Shown in pieces: positions 52,578 to 63,527 of a stretch of 64,000 nucleotides of DNA. The position numbers and the translations under genes were made by a program. The stretch lies in contig CAUJCX010000028.1 of NCBI GenBank assembly GCA_963169235.1, positions 1 through 64,000 on the forward strand, in the 5' to 3' direction. The notes beneath the pieces are model-generated. The model worked only from the letters and a program-made list of their open reading frames with translations. It made no database searches and was not told where the DNA came from. The DNA comes from Actinomycetota bacterium (lineage in GTDB: Bacteria > Actinomycetota > Thermoleophilia > Miltoncostaeales > Miltoncostaeaceae). Positions within the stretch are counted from its first letter, which is position 1. Each line of letters starts with the position of its first letter.

Positions 52578-53654
52578 ATGACTCAAAAACCGCATATCCA
52601 TTGGGCTCGCCGGTCGCTGCGCCTCGTCGCGGCCGGGTCCGCCGTCGCCGCCATCGCCGTCGGCGCGGCCGCCTGCAACGACAGTTCGGGGTCGTCTCTG
52701 CCCGAGGGCGTCGCCGCCCGCGTGGGCGACACCCCCATCACTTTCACGCAGCTCAACCGCGTGATGACGCAGAGCGCGGCCACCGCCAAGGCGCAGGGGC
52801 AGACGTTCCCCGCGACCGGCAGCACCGAATACAAGGACGCACAGCGACAGGCGCTTCAGACGCTGGTCAACGTGCAGGTCGTCCGCTCCGAGGCCAAGGT
52901 GTGCGGTTCCCCGTGCGCGGTCACGCCGAAGGATGTCGACAAAGAGCTCGACAGCATCGTGAAGGCCCAGATCCAGGGCAAGCAGGCCGAGCTCACCAAG
53001 TTCCTGAAGTCCCGGCAGCTCAGCATGGCCGAGGCGCGCGACCAGGTGCGGGCCAGCCTGCAGCAGAGCAAGATCCGCGAGCACGTCACCCGCGGCGTGC
53101 GCTTCAACGACGCCGACGCCCGCAAGTACTACCTGGCCAACACCGCGTCGTTCCGCGTCCCCGCCGAGCGCGTCGCGTCGCACATCCTGGTGAAGACCAA
53201 GGCCGAGGCCGACAAGCTGTACGCCGAGGCCACGCCCGCGAACTTCGCGGAGCTGGCCAAGAAACACTCGCAGGACCCGGGCTCGAAGGGCACCGGCGGG
53301 TCGCTGGGCCCCATCCAGAAGGGCGCCCTGGTGCCCGAGTTCGAGAAGGTCGCGTTCGCGCTGCCGCAGGGGCAGATCTCGAAGCCGGTCAAGACGCAGT
53401 TCGGCTACCACCTGATCCTCATCACGAAGATCACCAAGCCGCGCACCATCCCGTTCGCCGAGGCGAAGAAGCAGATCGTCTCGCAGCAGCTCCAGACCGA
53501 GCGTCAGACCACGTTCCAGACCTGGGTCGACAAGACGCTGAAGAAGTGGAAGGACCGCACGGTGTACGCCAACAAGGACCTTGAGCCGGTCGAGACGCCG
53601 GCCGCCCAGCCGGGCGCCGACGGGCAGCCGCAGCCGCAGCCCGCGACCCCGTGA
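52578..53654 (+). CDS. Lipoprotein peptidyl-prolyl isomerase, SurA/PrsA-like
   Basis: 358 residues. A lipoprotein signal ends at the lipobox 'VGAAAC', so it is anchored outside the membrane. An N-terminal SurA-like helical chaperone domain (GVAARVGDTPITFTQLNRVM) precedes a parvulin domain at ~residues 190-290: 'ASHILVKTKAEADKLYAEA', 'FAELAKKHSQDPGSKGTGGS', 'FGYHLILI'. The C-terminal tail is Pro/Gln-rich. It helps fold exported proteins. ATG 52578 has a TACGAT -10-like box (52562-52567) only 10 nt upstream. The stop overlaps the mazG start (GTGA). Confidence 0.93.
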   Translation: MTQKPHIHWARRSLRLVAAGSAVAAIAVGAAACNDSSGSSLPEGVAARVGDTPITFTQLNRVMTQSAATAKAQGQTFPATGSTEYKDAQRQALQTLVNVQVVRSEAKVCGSPCAVTPKDVDKELDSIVKAQIQGKQAELTKFLKSRQLSMAEARDQVRASLQQSKIREHVTRGVRFNDADARKYYLANTASFRVPAERVASHILVKTKAEADKLYAEATPANFAELAKKHSQDPGSKGTGGSLGPIQKGALVPEFEKVAFALPQGQISKPVKTQFGYHLILITKITKPRTIPFAEAKKQIVSQQLQTERQTTFQTWVDKTLKKWKDRTVYANKDLEPVETPAAQPGADGQPQPQPATP

Positions 53655-54676
53655 TCACCGTCGTCGGACTCGGGCCCGGTGATGCGGGCTCGGTTCCGGC
53701 GGCAGCGCTCGCGGCGCTGGCGGGCGTGGAGACCATCCACTGCCCGCCGCTCGACGACGCGGTGGCGGCGCTCCTTGCCCCCGCTGCGACGGTGCCGCTG
53801 GGCGACGTGGCGCACCTGCCGCCCGACGCCGTGGTGGCGGCCCCCGACCCGGAGGCGCTGCGCGTGGCACGCGCCGTGCCGCAGGCCGCGACCGTGCCCG
53901 ACCGGCCCGTGCTGCGGCAGCGCGCCATCGGGGCGCGGGTGGCGCACCTGGCCGCCGTCGGCCTGCATCTGCGGGCCGAGTGCCCGTGGGACCGCGAGCA
54001 GACGGCCGCGTCCATCGTGCCCCACACCATCGAGGAGGCGTACGAGGTGGCCGACGCGATCGCGGGCGGCGACCCCGCCAAGCAACGCGACGAGCTGGGC
54101 GACCTGCTGTTCCAGGCCGTGTTCCTCAGCCAGTTGCTGGAGGAGACCGGTGACGGAGACCTGGGCGACGTGGCCCACGGGCAGACCACCAAGCTCATCT
54201 CCCGCCACCCGCACGTGTACGGCGACGCCCGGGCGCGCGAGGCCTCCGAGGTGGTCGACGTGTGGGAGCGCCGCAAGCGCGAGGAACGCGCCGACCAGGG
54301 CGTCTTCCACGATCTGCCCGACGGGTTGCCGTCGCTGGCGTTCGCCACCAAGGCCCAGAAGCGGGCCGCCGCCGTGGGCTTCGTGTTCGGCGGCGCCGCC
54401 GACGCCATCGCCCGCCTGCGCGACGAGGTGGCCGAACTGGAGGCCGATCCCGGTGGCGCCGAGCTGGGCGACGTGCTCTTCGCCGCCGTGGCCGTCGCGC
54501 CCCACGTGGGGGCCGACCCCGACCTGGCGCTGCGGGCCACCACGCGCACGTTCCGGGCCCGGGTGCAGGCGGCCGCCGACCTGGCCCAGCGCCACGGCGA
54601 GAGCTTCGAGGCACTCGACCCGGACCGGCAGCTGGAGTGGTACGCCCGGGCCCGGCGCGAGCCCGGCGTGCCGTGA
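53651..54676 (+). CDS. mazG: MazG nucleotide pyrophosphohydrolase with relict methylase N-terminus
   Basis: 341 residues. The C-terminal ~250 are MazG: 'LRAECPWDREQTAASIVPH', Mg-binding 'EEAYEVADAI' and 'RDELGDLLFQAVFLSQLLEE', 'HPHVYGD', then a second, degenerate repeat. MazG hydrolyses NTPs and ppGpp-like nucleotides. The N-terminus opens with 'MITVVGLGPGDAGSVPAAAL', the signature of the tetrapyrrole methylase half of YabN-type fusions, but only about 85 residues remain instead of ~200 and the later SAM-binding motifs are missing. It overlaps the foldase gene by 4 bases. In this cluster mazG normally precedes eno. Confidence 0.9.
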   Translation: MITVVGLGPGDAGSVPAAALAALAGVETIHCPPLDDAVAALLAPAATVPLGDVAHLPPDAVVAAPDPEALRVARAVPQAATVPDRPVLRQRAIGARVAHLAAVGLHLRAECPWDREQTAASIVPHTIEEAYEVADAIAGGDPAKQRDELGDLLFQAVFLSQLLEETGDGDLGDVAHGQTTKLISRHPHVYGDARAREASEVVDVWERRKREERADQGVFHDLPDGLPSLAFATKAQKRAAAVGFVFGGAADAIARLRDEVAELEADPGGAELGDVLFAAVAVAPHVGADPDLALRATTRTFRARVQAAADLAQRHGESFEALDPDRQLEWYARARREPGVP

Positions 54677-54710: not shown

Positions 54711-54738
54711 CAAAGGTCGGAGGCCGATCGGCCGATAA
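54711..54738 (+). promoter_or_regulatory. Sigma-28-like promoter upstream of the 54747 kinase-like gene
   Basis: The -10 element GCCGATAA (54731-54738) is a perfect match to the FliA consensus. CAAAG at 54711-54715 is a near match to the -35 TAAAG, with spacing one base longer than ideal. The preceding bases repeat the core CCGATCGGCCGATA also found at the flgF promoter. Initiation about 7 nt downstream would be at the GTG start codon (54747), giving a leaderless transcript. Confidence 0.55.
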
Positions 54739-54746
54739 TCCAAGAC

Positions 54747-55472
54747 GTGTCGTACCACGCCTCCCACACCCCTGCACCCGGCGACGGGGAGCTCCTGGCG
54801 CTCGCCAGCGAGGAGCTGCGCGGCCCGCTGACCAGCGTGTCCGGCTTCTTGCAGCTACTCATCGACGGTGAGGCGGGCGACCTGACGCCCGGCCAGTCGC
54901 GCGTGGCCGAGATCGCGGCCCGCAACGCCGACAAGATGGCGCGCATGATCGACGACCTCATCGTGATCGCGCAGGTGCGCACCACGGGCCTGGCGCCCGA
55001 GCGCACGCCGGTGGACGTGGTGGACGTGGTGCGTGAGCGGGTGTACGCCGTCAGCGCCGACCTGCAGGCCCGTCGGGCCGCGGTGAGCCTCAGCTCGGAC
55101 CCCTGCCCGCCCATCACGGCCGACGCGCCGTCGGTGGTGCAGATGGTCGACCAGATGCTGCGCGGCGCGCTGACGTTCGTGCCCATCAACGGCCGCATCG
55201 ACGTCGGCGTGCACGCCACGTCGGACGGCGTCACGGTGGAGGTGGGCGACAACGGGGGCGAGCTCGACCAGAGCGACGTGCCCGACGTGTTCACGGGCCT
55301 GTCGGCCCTGGCGCCCAAGAGCCCCCGCGCGCTGGTGGGCAGCCGCATGGGGCTCCAGTTGGTGCGCGAGGTGGCCCGCGCCCACGGCGGTGACGCCGAG
55401 GTCGAGACGGGCGACGGCCGCACCGTGGTGCGCGTGACGCTGGCGACGGGGGAGACCGGCGCGACGCGGTGA
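54747..55472 (+). CDS. Degenerate histidine kinase-like protein
   Basis: 241 residues with no membrane segment. The HisKA-like helix reads 'LLALASEELRGPLTSVSGFL', where active kinases have S-H-E-L-R-x-P: the phospho-acceptor His is Glu22. The rest of the helix pair is well kept ('ARNADKMARMIDDLIVIAQV'). In the HATPase domain the N-box Asn is Gly ('QMLRGALTFVP'), while G1 'VGDNGGELD' and a G2-like 'GSRMGLQLVREVARAHGGDA' remain. It probably cannot autophosphorylate; it may bind a partner kinase or regulator. It lies between mazG and eno but appears to have its own sigma-28-type promoter, which suggests a motility-linked role. Confidence 0.85.
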   Translation: MSYHASHTPAPGDGELLALASEELRGPLTSVSGFLQLLIDGEAGDLTPGQSRVAEIAARNADKMARMIDDLIVIAQVRTTGLAPERTPVDVVDVVRERVYAVSADLQARRAAVSLSSDPCPPITADAPSVVQMVDQMLRGALTFVPINGRIDVGVHATSDGVTVEVGDNGGELDQSDVPDVFTGLSALAPKSPRALVGSRMGLQLVREVARAHGGDAEVETGDGRTVVRVTLATGETGATR

Positions 55473-55505: not shown

Positions 55506-56825
<1,320 letters not shown>

Positions 56826-59193: not shown

Positions 59194-60264
59194 TCAACCC
59201 CCGGGCGAGTGCTCCGACGGGGCGCCGTCGCGGTGGCGCGGCAGCCCAGCGGTCCACATCGCAAGGAGGATGGGGGAGTCGGTCTCGCCCCGGTCGATCA
59301 GCGCGTGGATCTGCGGCAGGGCCTCCCGGCGCAGGTACACGTGCCGTTGCCCCACGCTGGGCTTCTCGCCCAAGAGGCCCGCGCGCACGAGGGCCTCGCC
59401 CACCATGGTGGCGTCGCGGCGCTGGTCGGCGGCCACGCCGCGGTACAGGTGGTCGTCGGCGGTGTGGTACCCGGAGCCCACCTTGCCCATGCGCAAGAGG
59501 CGCCGCAGCAGGCGCCGGGCGTGGCGCCGCCGGGGGCACGGATCGTTGTCCGGGCCGGTCGGCGGGTCCTCGTCGACCGGCGCGTCGTCCGCCACGCCGC
59601 CGCCCACGCCCCACCCGCGCAGCGTGTGCCGGAGCGCCGGGGTGTCGCGCACCGAACGCGGGGGCTGGCCGTGCTGCACCAGCGCCAGCACCACGTCCCA
59701 CGGGTGGCCGCCCAGCGCGGCGGCCAGGGTGCTGATCGCGTCCCTGCCCGCCGCGACGGGCTCGAGCGGCACCTCGCGAGGCACGCCGAGGTCGGCGGGC
59801 GCGAGGGGCTGGACGTCGGTGAGCCCGGCGCGCTCGTCGCGCTCGCCCAGCGCGATCTGCACCAGCTCGGGGTCGTCGTACGCACCGGGCAGCTCCAGCG
59901 CCACGAGACCGTGCCAGTCGAGGATGCGAATGCCCTCCGCGACGGCCTCCGCGTCGACGGCGGCCAGCATCGCGCCGATGACCACGTCCACCGGTGCCTG
60001 CGGCGAGTAGTCGGCGGCGTGCCGGGCCAGCACGGGCAACAGCCACACCGCGTCACCGGCGGGGTTGCGCGTGGTCCACACCCACAGCGTGTGGCCGCGG
60101 TCGAACACCGTGCGGGCGCACTCGTGCAGGCACATGGCGACGGCCTCGTCGCGGTCGCCGCGCATCCACGCGGCCAGCCCGGACGCGACGTCGCCGGCGG
60201 GGCGCTGCAGATCAGCGAGGGAGACGCTGGTGGCCGCGGGACGGCCTGGCGACGAGGAACCCAC
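59194..60264 (-). CDS. Hypothetical cytoplasmic protein
   Basis: About 356 residues with no signal or membrane segment. The text is Ala/Asp/Arg-rich with 'GDRDEAVAMCLHECARTVFD', 'NPAGDAVWLLPVLARHAADY', 'ALAAALGGHPWDVVLALVQH' and a basic segment 'PRRRHARRLLRRLLRMGKVG' followed by 'ATMVGEALVRAGLLGEKPSV', 'QRHVYLRREALPQIHALIDR'. The last part resembles a winged-helix-like module. I recognise no family. GTG 60264 is preferred because codon use deteriorates upstream; ATG 60324 is the alternative. Divergent from the 60336 gene. Confidence 0.65.
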   Translation of the reverse strand: MGSSSPGRPAATSVSLADLQRPAGDVASGLAAWMRGDRDEAVAMCLHECARTVFDRGHTLWVWTTRNPAGDAVWLLPVLARHAADYSPQAPVDVVIGAMLAAVDAEAVAEGIRILDWHGLVALELPGAYDDPELVQIALGERDERAGLTDVQPLAPADLGVPREVPLEPVAAGRDAISTLAAALGGHPWDVVLALVQHGQPPRSVRDTPALRHTLRGWGVGGGVADDAPVDEDPPTGPDNDPCPRRRHARRLLRRLLRMGKVGSGYHTADDHLYRGVAADQRRDATMVGEALVRAGLLGEKPSVGQRHVYLRREALPQIHALIDRGETDSPILLAMWTAGLPRHRDGAPSEHSPGG

Positions 60265-60335
60265 CCGTCGATGGTAGTCGAATGATGCCTTCGGCGAGGG
60301 TTGCGCGCGCGGCACGGTCGGCATAGCGTCGCGCC

Positions 60336-60804: not shown

Positions 60805-61089
60805 TCAGCGCGAGTAGCCGCCGTTGGCCCGGTAGGCCCAGGCGAACACCTCGGCGATCACCGCGTACAGCTCCACCGGGATGGTCTGCATCAGGTCGAG
60901 CGCGCCCAGCGCCGCGACGAGGTCGGGATCCTCGCGGATGGGGATGCCGTTCTCCCGGGCGGTCTCGAGGATGCGGTCGGCCACCGACCCCGAGCCCGTC
61001 GCGGTGACGTACGGGGCGTGGCCCTCCACCTGGTCGTACTTCAGGGCGACGGCGCGGGGGGCGTCGCGTTGATGCTTCGGGGGGGTCAC
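60805..61089 (-). CDS. Stand-alone FlhB C-terminal-domain protein
   Basis: 94 residues. 'RAVALKYDQVEGHAPYVTAT', 'SVADRILETARENGIPIRED' and 'PDLVAALGALDLMQTIPVEL' with 'YAVIAEVFAWAYR' match the cytoplasmic switch domain of FlhB/EscU. The self-cleaving NPTH motif, which should lie just before 'RAVALKYD', is absent. Such FlhX-like proteins occur next to fliK in some bacteria and may influence export switching from rod/hook to filament. GTG start overlaps the fliK stop by 4 bases. Confidence 0.85.
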   Translation of the reverse strand: MTPPKHQRDAPRAVALKYDQVEGHAPYVTATGSGSVADRILETARENGIPIREDPDLVAALGALDLMQTIPVELYAVIAEVFAWAYRANGGYSR

Positions 61090-62612
61090 GCGGAGACGTT
61101 GAGTCCGGACGCGGGCGGCGGCGGGATGATGCCTGGGGCTTCGTGCGGCGCCATGCGGTCGACGCGCACGTGCGGTTGCCTCTGACCCGGCAGCGCCCGG
61201 GCCAGGCCGTCGGCCAGGTCGTGGGCCTGGCTGGTGAGGTACTCGCGCACGGGGGCCGACGCGGAGCGCACGGCGGCGTCCACCCCGTCGGCGCCCAGCG
61301 ACGCCTCGATCACCAGCGGCCCCAGCTTGCTCATGTTGAGCACGAACGCGACCTTGGTGCCGCCACCGCCGCGGTGCTCCCCGTCGGCGTCGCGGTCGGC
61401 GTTCACGTGCACCTCGGCGGTCTGCCCGCCGGGCAGCGGCATCTGCAGGTACGCGCTCTGCTGCGACGGGTCCTGGTTGAGCGCCTGCCCCACCAGCGGC
61501 TGGGCGGCGATGGCGTCGCCCGCCCGCTCGGCCATCGCGCGCGTGTGCACGCCCATGTCGGGCGACTGCGCCACCTGGGCCAGCAGCGTGCGCACGCTGG
61601 ATTCGTCGGGAGCCTGCCCCGTCGCCAGGCGCGCCTCGAGGCCGTGGCCCATGCGGGCGACGGCGTCACGCAGCCGCGCGTGATCGCCGCTGATCGTCGC
61701 CTCGGCGATCTCCCGTACCAGCTGCGTCAGCTGGGCCATCGCCGCGTCACCGGGACGGGACGCGGTCGCCGGGGTCGCCGACGGCGCGGCCGCGGGGGCA
61801 CCCGTCGACGCGGACGTAGCGGACGCGGACGCGGGGGCCGCGGTGCGGGTCGCGACGGCCGCGCCGTCCGGGTCGGCCGTCGCGGCCACCTCGTCGGCGG
61901 CCGCGGCGGCGGCGGCGGAGGCGGCGGCCGTCGCACCCGGGGCCGGAGCGCCGCCCGCAGGCGGGGCCGTGGCGGCGACGGGAACGCCGGGTGCGGCGGG
62001 GGCGGCGGAGGCGGGGGGCGCGCCCCCGGGGGCGGTGATGATCGCCAGCATGCGTCCCAGCGGGGGGCCCTCGCTCAGCGTGGCCATCCCCGCCACGGCC
62101 GCCGGCGTCGTGGGCAGCCCGGCGGCGGCCAGCCGCGCGAACGCGGCGGCCTGGGCGGGCGTCGACACCCCGGCCTGGGCGGCGCGGGCGGCCATCGCCG
62201 CGCGCTGCAGGGCCGCCTGGGCCCCGTCGCCGTCGATGTCGGTCATCCCCATCTGGGACAGCGCGTTGAACAGGGCCTGCGCGGTCTGCGGCGCCAGGCC
62301 CCCGGGCCGCGCACCCGCCTGGCCCGTGGCGGGCCCGTCGCCGTCGGCCCCCACGATCTGGAACGCGACGCGCTGCTCGTCGAGGTTCTGCACGGCCATG
62401 CGCACGGTCTGGCCCGGCTCCAGCGCCAGGTCGGTGGATGCGATCAGCCGCTGGCCCGCCACGGCCAGCTCCACCTGCCCACCGTCTTTGGAGACGACGC
62501 GGGCCGCCAGCACCTGGCCCTCCACCACCGGCAGCACGGGCCGCAGCACGTCGGAGCCACCCTGGACGGGGGCCGACGGGGGCGGCGGTGCGGCGATGGG
62601 GTTGGTGCTCAC
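61086..62612 (-). CDS. fliK: Flagellar hook-length control protein FliK-like
   Basis: 508 residues. The N-terminal region 'GQVLAARVVSKDGGQVELAV' followed by 'LEPGQTVRMAVQNL' is a beta domain common in FliK-like proteins. The middle is a ~130-residue Ala/Pro-rich ruler-like segment. The C-terminal domain 'AYLQMPLPGGQTAEVHVNAD', 'KVAFVLNMSKLGPLVIEASL', 'DLADGLARALPGQ' corresponds to Flg_hook, which interacts with FlhB. Its partner FlhB-C-like gene overlaps downstream. GTG 62612 directly follows a sigma-28-like -10 element, suggesting leaderless expression. Confidence 0.85.
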   Translation of the reverse strand: MSTNPIAAPPPPSAPVQGGSDVLRPVLPVVEGQVLAARVVSKDGGQVELAVAGQRLIASTDLALEPGQTVRMAVQNLDEQRVAFQIVGADGDGPATGQAGARPGGLAPQTAQALFNALSQMGMTDIDGDGAQAALQRAAMAARAAQAGVSTPAQAAAFARLAAAGLPTTPAAVAGMATLSEGPPLGRMLAIITAPGGAPPASAAPAAPGVPVAATAPPAGGAPAPGATAAASAAAAAAADEVAATADPDGAAVATRTAAPASASATSASTGAPAAAPSATPATASRPGDAAMAQLTQLVREIAEATISGDHARLRDAVARMGHGLEARLATGQAPDESSVRTLLAQVAQSPDMGVHTRAMAERAGDAIAAQPLVGQALNQDPSQQSAYLQMPLPGGQTAEVHVNADRDADGEHRGGGGTKVAFVLNMSKLGPLVIEASLGADGVDAAVRSASAPVREYLTSQAHDLADGLARALPGQRQPHVRVDRMAPHEAPGIIPPPPASGLNVSA

Positions 62613-62647: not shown

Positions 62648-62730
62648 CCCCGCGGGCGGGTCCGCCCGCGTACGCGCGAGGGGGACACGCCCGGCGGTGC
62701 GTTTTTCTCACTCCATCGTGGTCCGGGGGT

Positions 62731-62757
62731 TAAGTCGCGGGCCCGATCGGCCGATAT
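62731..62757 (+). promoter_or_regulatory. Sigma-28 (FliA)-type promoter for flgF
   Basis: TAAG at 62731 and GCCGATAT at 62750-62757, separated by exactly 15 nt, match the FliA pattern (TAAA-N15-GCCGATAA) in both boxes. It lies 39 bases upstream of the flgF start. The leader of about 32 nt contains a GGAAGAAG ribosome-binding site. Confidence 0.75.
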
Positions 62758-62795: not shown

Positions 62796-63527
62796 TTGCT
62801 GAGAGGGATCTACATCGCCGGCAGCGGGATGCTTGCCGAGAGCACACGGCAGGAGGTCGTGGCCCAGAACCTGGCCAACGCCCTCACCTCCGGTTACAAG
62901 CGCACGGATGCCGCGACGCAACCGTTTCAAACGTTCCTCCTGAGGAACATGGCCATGCCGGGCCAACCCGAGATCGGGTCCATGAACATGGGCTCGGAGG
63001 TCTCGCGGCTGGACATCGTGTCCACGCAGGGTCCCCTGCGCAGCACGAGCAACCAGCTGGACCTCGCCCTGGTGGGCGACGGCTACTTCGCCGTCAACGC
63101 CCCCGGCGGCACGCGCTTCACGCGCGATGGTGCCTTCACGATCGACCAGACCGGCACGCTCGTCACCAAGGAAGGTTTCGTGGTGCGCGGACAGAACGGT
63201 CCGATCAAGGCGAACGGCACCGAGCCGATCGGCATCTCGCAGGACGGGGTGGTAACGCAGGGCAGCCGGACGCTGGGACGCCTGCAGATCACCGCGCTCG
63301 ATCCCCAAAGCTTGACCAAGGAAGGCGCCAGCCTGATGACCGGCACGCCGCGTGGCACCGCCACTGCGACCGTGCGTCAGGGCTTCCTGGAAGGAAGCAC
63401 GGTCAACCCCGTCTCGGAGATGGTCGAGCTCATCCGCGTGATGCGCTCTTTCGAGGCGAACCAGAAGTCGGTCCAGGCTCAGGATGAGACCTTGGGCCAG
63501 GCAATCTCAAAGGTGGGAGTGGTCTAG
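62796..63527 (+). CDS. flgF: Flagellar basal-body rod protein, FlgF/FlgG type
   Basis: 243 residues. Start TTG 62796, supported by GGAAGAAG and by the family N-terminus 'LRGIYIAGSGMLAESTRQEV', 'VAQNLANALTSGYKRTDAAT'. The central D1 domain has 'LDLALVGDGYFAVNAPGGTR', 'FTRDGAFTIDQTGTLVT', and the C-terminus 'GFLEGSTVNPVSEMVELIRV', 'MRSFEANQKSVQAQDETLGQ' forms the second rod helix. Presence of two FlgG-like genes in a row suggests this is flgF (proximal rod) and the next flgG. Assignment between F and G is by order. GC content is lower than the average of the window. Confidence 0.88.
   Translation: MLRGIYIAGSGMLAESTRQEVVAQNLANALTSGYKRTDAATQPFQTFLLRNMAMPGQPEIGSMNMGSEVSRLDIVSTQGPLRSTSNQLDLALVGDGYFAVNAPGGTRFTRDGAFTIDQTGTLVTKEGFVVRGQNGPIKANGTEPIGISQDGVVTQGSRTLGRLQITALDPQSLTKEGASLMTGTPRGTATATVRQGFLEGSTVNPVSEMVELIRVMRSFEANQKSVQAQDETLGQAISKVGVV

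Follow-up and report, generated by a model that had tools for sequence, protein, structure and literature searches.

What might a histidine kinase homologue do that has lost its phosphorylatable histidine, lies between the housekeeping genes mazG and eno, and carries a sigma28-like promoter set directly against its start codon? The gene lies in the window, by which we mean the whole 64,000-nucleotide stretch of DNA that was analysed, from the 2.94-Mb genome of the uncultured actinobacterium under study (G000). Our preferred reading, with a probability of roughly 0.5, is that it belongs to a family of pseudokinases that would be made from leaderless transcripts as an output of a WhiG-type sigma factor and would act by docking a response regulator.

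53651-54676, + strand: mazG, upstream neighbour, in conserved synteny
54747-55472, + strand: pseudo-histidine-kinase with DHp and CA domains (Pfam, AF2 model, structural match)
55545-56825, + strand: eno, downstream neighbour, in conserved synteny

A histidine kinase fold without its catalytic residues

The reading frame from GTG 54747 to the stop at 55472 encodes 241 amino acids. The first-pass annotation had described a HisKA helix pair and an ATPase fold, and both are borne out: HisKA (E=3.4e-11, beginning at about residue 14) and HATPase_c (E=2.7e-13) exceed their Pfam cut-offs, and a fairly confident AF2 model made from seven orthologues (pLDDT 80.5, pTM 0.80) exhibits an intact DHp helical pair and a CA domain with the Bergerat fold, which structural matching also recognises. 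The 241 residues include neither a sensor domain nor a transmembrane helix.

When 399 Thermoleophilia genomes are searched with the family profile, seven members match strongly (347-368 bits, against 174 for the runner-up), and a contig-level profile scan detected no further orthologue, its three strong matches being those of G001, G006 and G013. The seven belong to a single family and are spread over three of its genera, g1 (G000, G001), g6 (G006, G015) and g2 (G013, G020, G023), and group together in the tree with support of 100/99. The order mazG-pseudokinase-eno is found wherever the contig permits a view, a contig end removing one neighbour in G006 and G023, and in G015 about 0.7 kb separates the pseudokinase from eno. 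Because mazG is directly beside eno, with no kinase between, in six other members of the same family (G002, G004, G005, G009, G011, G018), the pseudokinase gene is probably an insertion. At the same locus G003 (genus g3) encodes a longer protein that joins the seven orthologues with support of 99/94 on a long branch, and this is perhaps the ancestral, sensor-bearing form. In G003 (L287, G003:C68) the frame opens on the reversed strand with GTG 3358, and its long N-terminus, matched in length by no other copy, appears by eye to hold a sensor-like region as well as membrane helices.

54810-54812, + strand: codon of Glu22, the phospho-acceptor position; E or D in 7/7 orthologues
55164-55166, + strand: codon of Gly140, the N-box Asn position; Asn in 0/7 orthologues

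Glu22 and the glycine that replaces the N-box asparagine had both been named in the first-pass annotation and are both seen in the sequence. The H-box reads SEELRGPL (S-E22-E23-L-R-G-P-L), with Glu in place of His; the second glycine of the G1 box is replaced by glutamate (D-N-G-G-E), and a glycine of the G2 box by an arginine (G-S-R-M-G-L) that is invariant among the seven orthologues. The phospho-acceptor position is Glu in six of the seven, Asp in G020 and Arg in the G003 copy, so that none of the eight proteins has the histidine, and none of the seven orthologues has intact G1 and G2 boxes or the N-box Asn. The phosphorylatable His is kept by 125 of 129 other kinases compared, a set from which three duplicate orthologue copies and G003 had been removed, and the N-box Asn is present in all other kinases compared (about 130). 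With no histidine in any orthologue at the mazG-eno locus, the claim of a pseudokinase stands, and we regard this assignment as practically certain. The protein is predicted from these replacements to be unable to autophosphorylate, and ATP binding in the usual mode is very probably absent; given these predicted losses, its most likely role would be binding. The Asp of G020 and the Arg of G003 at this position make a phosphomimetic role for Glu22 a disfavoured reading. The H-box SEELR also occurs in two Melainabacteria/Obscuribacterales kinases (L092, L137) that keep their ATP-binding motifs, in which the change of His to Glu is independent.

Could the gene simply be a decaying kinase without function? 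The many lost motifs and the absence of the gene from most relatives would fit such a fate, but the gene is intact in seven genomes of three genera, its promoter is kept, and its pairwise dN/dS (0.28-0.41) lies close to the 0.18-0.42 obtained for mazG over the same pairs. The gene is under purifying selection, and decay is an exceedingly improbable explanation.

A conserved promoter set against the start codon

54711-54715, + strand: -35 element CAAAG (TAAAG in the consensus), with 15 nt between it and the -10 box; AAG in 7/7 orthologous loci
54731-54738, + strand: -10 element GCCGATAA, sigma28/WhiG-type; GCCGATA in 7/7 orthologous loci
54747-54749, + strand: GTG start codon, the expected 5' end of a leaderless transcript; the only in-frame start before the H-box

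The -10 8-mer is separated from GTG 54747 by a gap of 8 nt, and with one mismatch to TAAA-N16-GCCGATAA this is the top site of the genome at N16 spacing. In all seven orthologous loci AAG-N14/15-GCCGATA stands upstream of an in-frame GTG, the 8-mer ending 8 nt before it in G000, G001, G006 and G015 and 7 nt before it in G013, G020 and G023. When matches to TAAAG/GCCGATAA are counted out of 13, with the box placed 7-8 nt upstream of a start, the seven loci score 12, 11, 11, 11, 10, 10 and 11, and random DNA of 66-70% GC reaches at least 10 with a probability of about 1e-4. The window has 4,984 start-codon triplets, of which just two exceed 10: the pseudokinase GTG, which is best (12/13), and the start of fliK (11/13). 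The G003 copy scores 7, keeping CCCGATAG alone at a distance of 7 nt from its GTG. From the end of mazG (54676) to the H-box, GTG 54747 is the single ATG, GTG or TTG start, and no Shine-Dalgarno sequence was found at the usual distance before it.

The proposal of a sigma28 promoter driving a leaderless transcript has therefore gained good computational support, with the box present in 7/7 loci at 7-8 nt from the GTG. The same motif marks che, flg and fli genes, and a FliA/WhiG sigma is encoded in the genome. The promoter is very probably of the sigma28/WhiG type, and transcription of the pseudokinase would depend on that sigma. The lack of another start and of a Shine-Dalgarno sequence, together with the constant spacing, leads us to predict from geometry, with good though somewhat lower confidence, that the transcript is leaderless. 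Read-through from mazG may be a further source of transcription. Could the same letters instead be an ordinary housekeeping -10 in leaderless placement? In G000, GATAAT lies 7 nt before the GTG, like leaderless promoters of the TANNNT type. However, the part conserved in the seven genomes includes the AAG and its N14/15 spacing, and the T of GATAAT is lost elsewhere (GATATC, GATACA, GATAGA, GATAAC). Because the conserved letters are GCCGATA, we consider a housekeeping promoter highly improbable.

The WhiG-type sigma factor and its apparent regulon

The FliA/WhiG-type sigma is encoded at G000:C8:2949-3626 and is the sole match above the cut-off in the genome (281 bits versus 189.6); sigmas of this type occur in most Thermoleophilia genomes, with or without flagella. 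Allowing at most two mismatches, TAAA-N15-GCCGATAA has 22 sites in the genome and its reversed-pattern control none, and at N16 spacing there are 36 sites versus three, counts that are indicative because the reversed control differs in codon-level composition. Directly behind N15 sites in G000 are cheA, cheW, cheR, cheY, flhB, flgF/G and rpoD. The stricter HAAG-N14/15-GCCGATA occurs 5-11 times per genome across eight genomes, versus 0-2 in controls, and precedes flagellin (G001), fliD (G006), prepilin (G000) and rpoD (G000, G006, G015), and in genus g2 a gene resembling pilT (G023) and another for a GGDEF-EAL protein (G013), both named by eye. The placement of the box directly on the start is seen again at fliK, cheR and pilT. 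In Rubrobacter, WhiG is reported to act through the same consensus on genes for type IV pili and DGC/PDE enzymes (PMC8325347), and c-di-GMP and type IV pilus genes likewise seem to belong to the regulon of the WhiG-type sigma here.

Several further sites were observed. At the pilT-like gene (L311, G023:C4:21253-21277, - strand), in a genome without flagellar genes, GCCGATAC ends 7 nt before the ATG. A perfect TAAA-N15-GCCGATAA (L162, G000:C15:58699-58725, - strand) lies about 100 nt upstream of an rpoD-like gene with a Sigma70_r1_1 domain, similar sites precede rpoD in G015 (L298) and G006 (L299), and a further such site is at G001:C50:6955; the housekeeping sigma gene may be driven by the WhiG-type sigma. 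A g2 gene whose product begins MAHYARTTPP is repeatedly found behind a sigma28-like site (L294 in G020, L296 in G023, L310 in G013), and secreted FG-GAP, RCC1-like and lyase-like repeat proteins, recognised by eye, are encoded behind such sites in G000 (L175, L176 and L170, on C39 and C35).

Is the pseudokinase tied to the flagellum?

61086-62612, - strand: fliK-like gene for flagellar hook-length control (PF02120, E=1.7e-6, slightly below the cut-off)
62730-62757, + strand: sigma28-like promoter of flgF/flgG
62796-63527, + strand: flgF/flgG-like rod protein, first gene of a flagellar cluster leaving the window (PF06429, PF22692, PF00460)

The first-pass annotation had placed the gene outside any flagellar cluster, which is correct for its immediate housekeeping neighbours but not for the window, where fliK and flgF/G are also found. 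The flagellar cluster starts about 4 kb downstream of eno and includes more matches to PF06429 (FlgEFG-type) on the contig (C28:64299, 66909), and eno is near flagellar genes in G015, G006, G012 and G019 too. The sigma28-like box of fliK (62647-62620, - strand) ends 7 nt before its GTG, so fliK is apparently another leaderless sigma28 transcript. A box 7-9 nt before the fliK start codon was noted in four genomes (window 62647-62610, - strand; L070, L071, L072). The 376-residue open reading frame between eno and fliK (59194-60324, - strand) has no Pfam match.

These surroundings, which in G015 also share a contig with the gene, the sigma28 box itself and its occurrence before cheA, cheW, cheR and cheY all favour the earlier suggestion that the pseudokinase serves specifically as decoy or adaptor for a kinase of chemotaxis or the flagellum. 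That suggestion fares poorly in genus g2: flagellin, a PF06429 protein and CheA were all not found in four g2 genomes, yet G013, G020 and G023 retain both the gene and its promoter. CheA was likewise not found in G001 and G003, single absences that are weak because both genomes are incomplete; the agreement of four g2 genomes over three markers is stronger. Since g2 keeps the pseudokinase and its promoter without them, no chemotaxis or flagellar kinase is required as the partner, and a decoy dedicated to one is unlikely. The pseudokinase is likely not flagellum-specific, and its association seems instead to be with the WhiG-type sigma and its wider regulon.

A proposed mode of action

How might a protein with these losses still work? 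Across the seven orthologues, conservation is 0.66 in DHp helix 1, 0.47 in DHp helix 2, 0.32 in the ATP lid and 0.72 in the C-terminal helix after the G2 box. R25 and P27, at +3 and +5 from the phospho-acceptor position, are invariant. In DivL the position of R25 is taken by R553, which lies on the docking surface and whose replacement by Ala disrupts binding of DivK~P; in vitro, DivL displayed neither kinase nor phosphatase activity (PMC4211667). Structural matches of the AF2 model include HK853-RR468 complexes and DivL (4q20_B, TM 0.73, rmsd 3.1). Active HisKA domains normally have R25 and P27 as well, so that descent would account for their retention, which only hints at docking, but together with helix-1 conservation and the DivL R553 parallel they favour receiver docking without catalysis.

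In the model that we propose, the FliA/WhiG-type sigma would transcribe the pseudokinase as a leaderless mRNA, so that the protein would be made in step with the programme for motility, type IV pili and c-di-GMP. The DHp dimer, with a receiver-docking face on its first helix, would then capture a response regulator and, for as long as the sigma is active, alter the traffic through it. We would put receiver docking on an even footing with all other modes together, kinase heterodimers included. A bolder version, in which a family of soluble, doubly dead histidine kinases, itself a fixed output of the WhiG-type sigma with almost the same promoter-to-start geometry in every genus, sequesters a response regulator, thereby feeds back on the motility, pilus and c-di-GMP decision and has outlived the flagellum in lineages that lack one, is tentative and less likely than not. 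Receiver docking does not explain the conserved C-terminal helix or the invariant Cys-Pro pair near the start of the CA domain (C120-P121, window 55104-55109, 7/7 orthologues).

The same helices could serve another purpose, forming mixed dimers with an active histidine kinase in a dominant-negative or scaffolding manner, as in RetS. The DHp helices are intact in the AF2 model, RetS is among the structural and profile matches, and a potential partner exists in the paralogue G000:C35:265915 (36% identity), which is near in the tree, although the joining fork is weak (67/76). Against this, DHp helix 2, which contributes one half of the bundle in the dimer, shows weaker conservation than helix 1, and inspection of the pseudokinase locus revealed no coupled kinase. 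No cognate regulator was recognised by eye among the open reading frames beside the paralogue. We view mixed dimers as a minority possibility. The C-terminal helix, the best-conserved part of the protein, the HATPase_c fold and membership in the apparent regulon of the WhiG-type sigma would also fit an anti-sigma-like or feedback regulator acting through its Bergerat-fold domain on that sigma or its anti-sigma. Anti-sigmas of the SpoIIAB/RsbW type have no DHp domain and require their ATP-binding motifs; the pseudokinase, in contrast, has a DHp domain and broken motifs, which makes this quite improbable.

Comparison with known systems

The pseudokinase is reminiscent of Caulobacter DivL (PMC4211667), which also combines a non-His phospho-acceptor position with the DHp and CA fold, a conserved patch on the docking face and an Arg at +3, and which is also tied to a lifestyle switch. 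However, DivL has Tyr at this position (rarely Ala in its family) and keeps its N, G1, F and G2 boxes, whereas the pseudokinase has Glu or Asp and broken ATP motifs; DivL has N-terminal PAS domains and the pseudokinase no sensor region; and the two belong to different phyla, the sigma28-type promoter being peculiar to the pseudokinase. It would be DivL-like in working mode but lies outside the DivL family. The kinase region of RetS (6dk7/6dk8) is likewise of the HisKA type and a structural match to the AF2 model. RetS acts by interaction with another kinase and is a large membrane hybrid protein, unlike the soluble, 241-residue pseudokinase. A pseudokinase version of ChrS in Corynebacterium glutamicum provides another kinase-dead histidine kinase in an actinobacterium, but ChrS is part of a known heme-responsive two-component system (PMC9491836).

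The nearest parallel for the promoter is the WhiG regulon of Rubrobacter (PMC8325347), which shares the TAAA/GCCGATAA promoters, the type IV pilus and DGC/PDE genes and the same early actinobacterial branch. It differs in that its main text mentions no histidine kinase, and in that the box here also stands on flagellar, chemotaxis and rpoD genes. The pseudokinase offers a clean case in which a histidine kinase is catalytically dead and the one evident form of control is a sigma28-family promoter against the start codon, a pair conserved in flagellated and non-flagellated genera alike. It adds to the likely WhiG regulon of an actinobacterial class that branched early, and it hints that leaderless transcripts are a recurring feature there.
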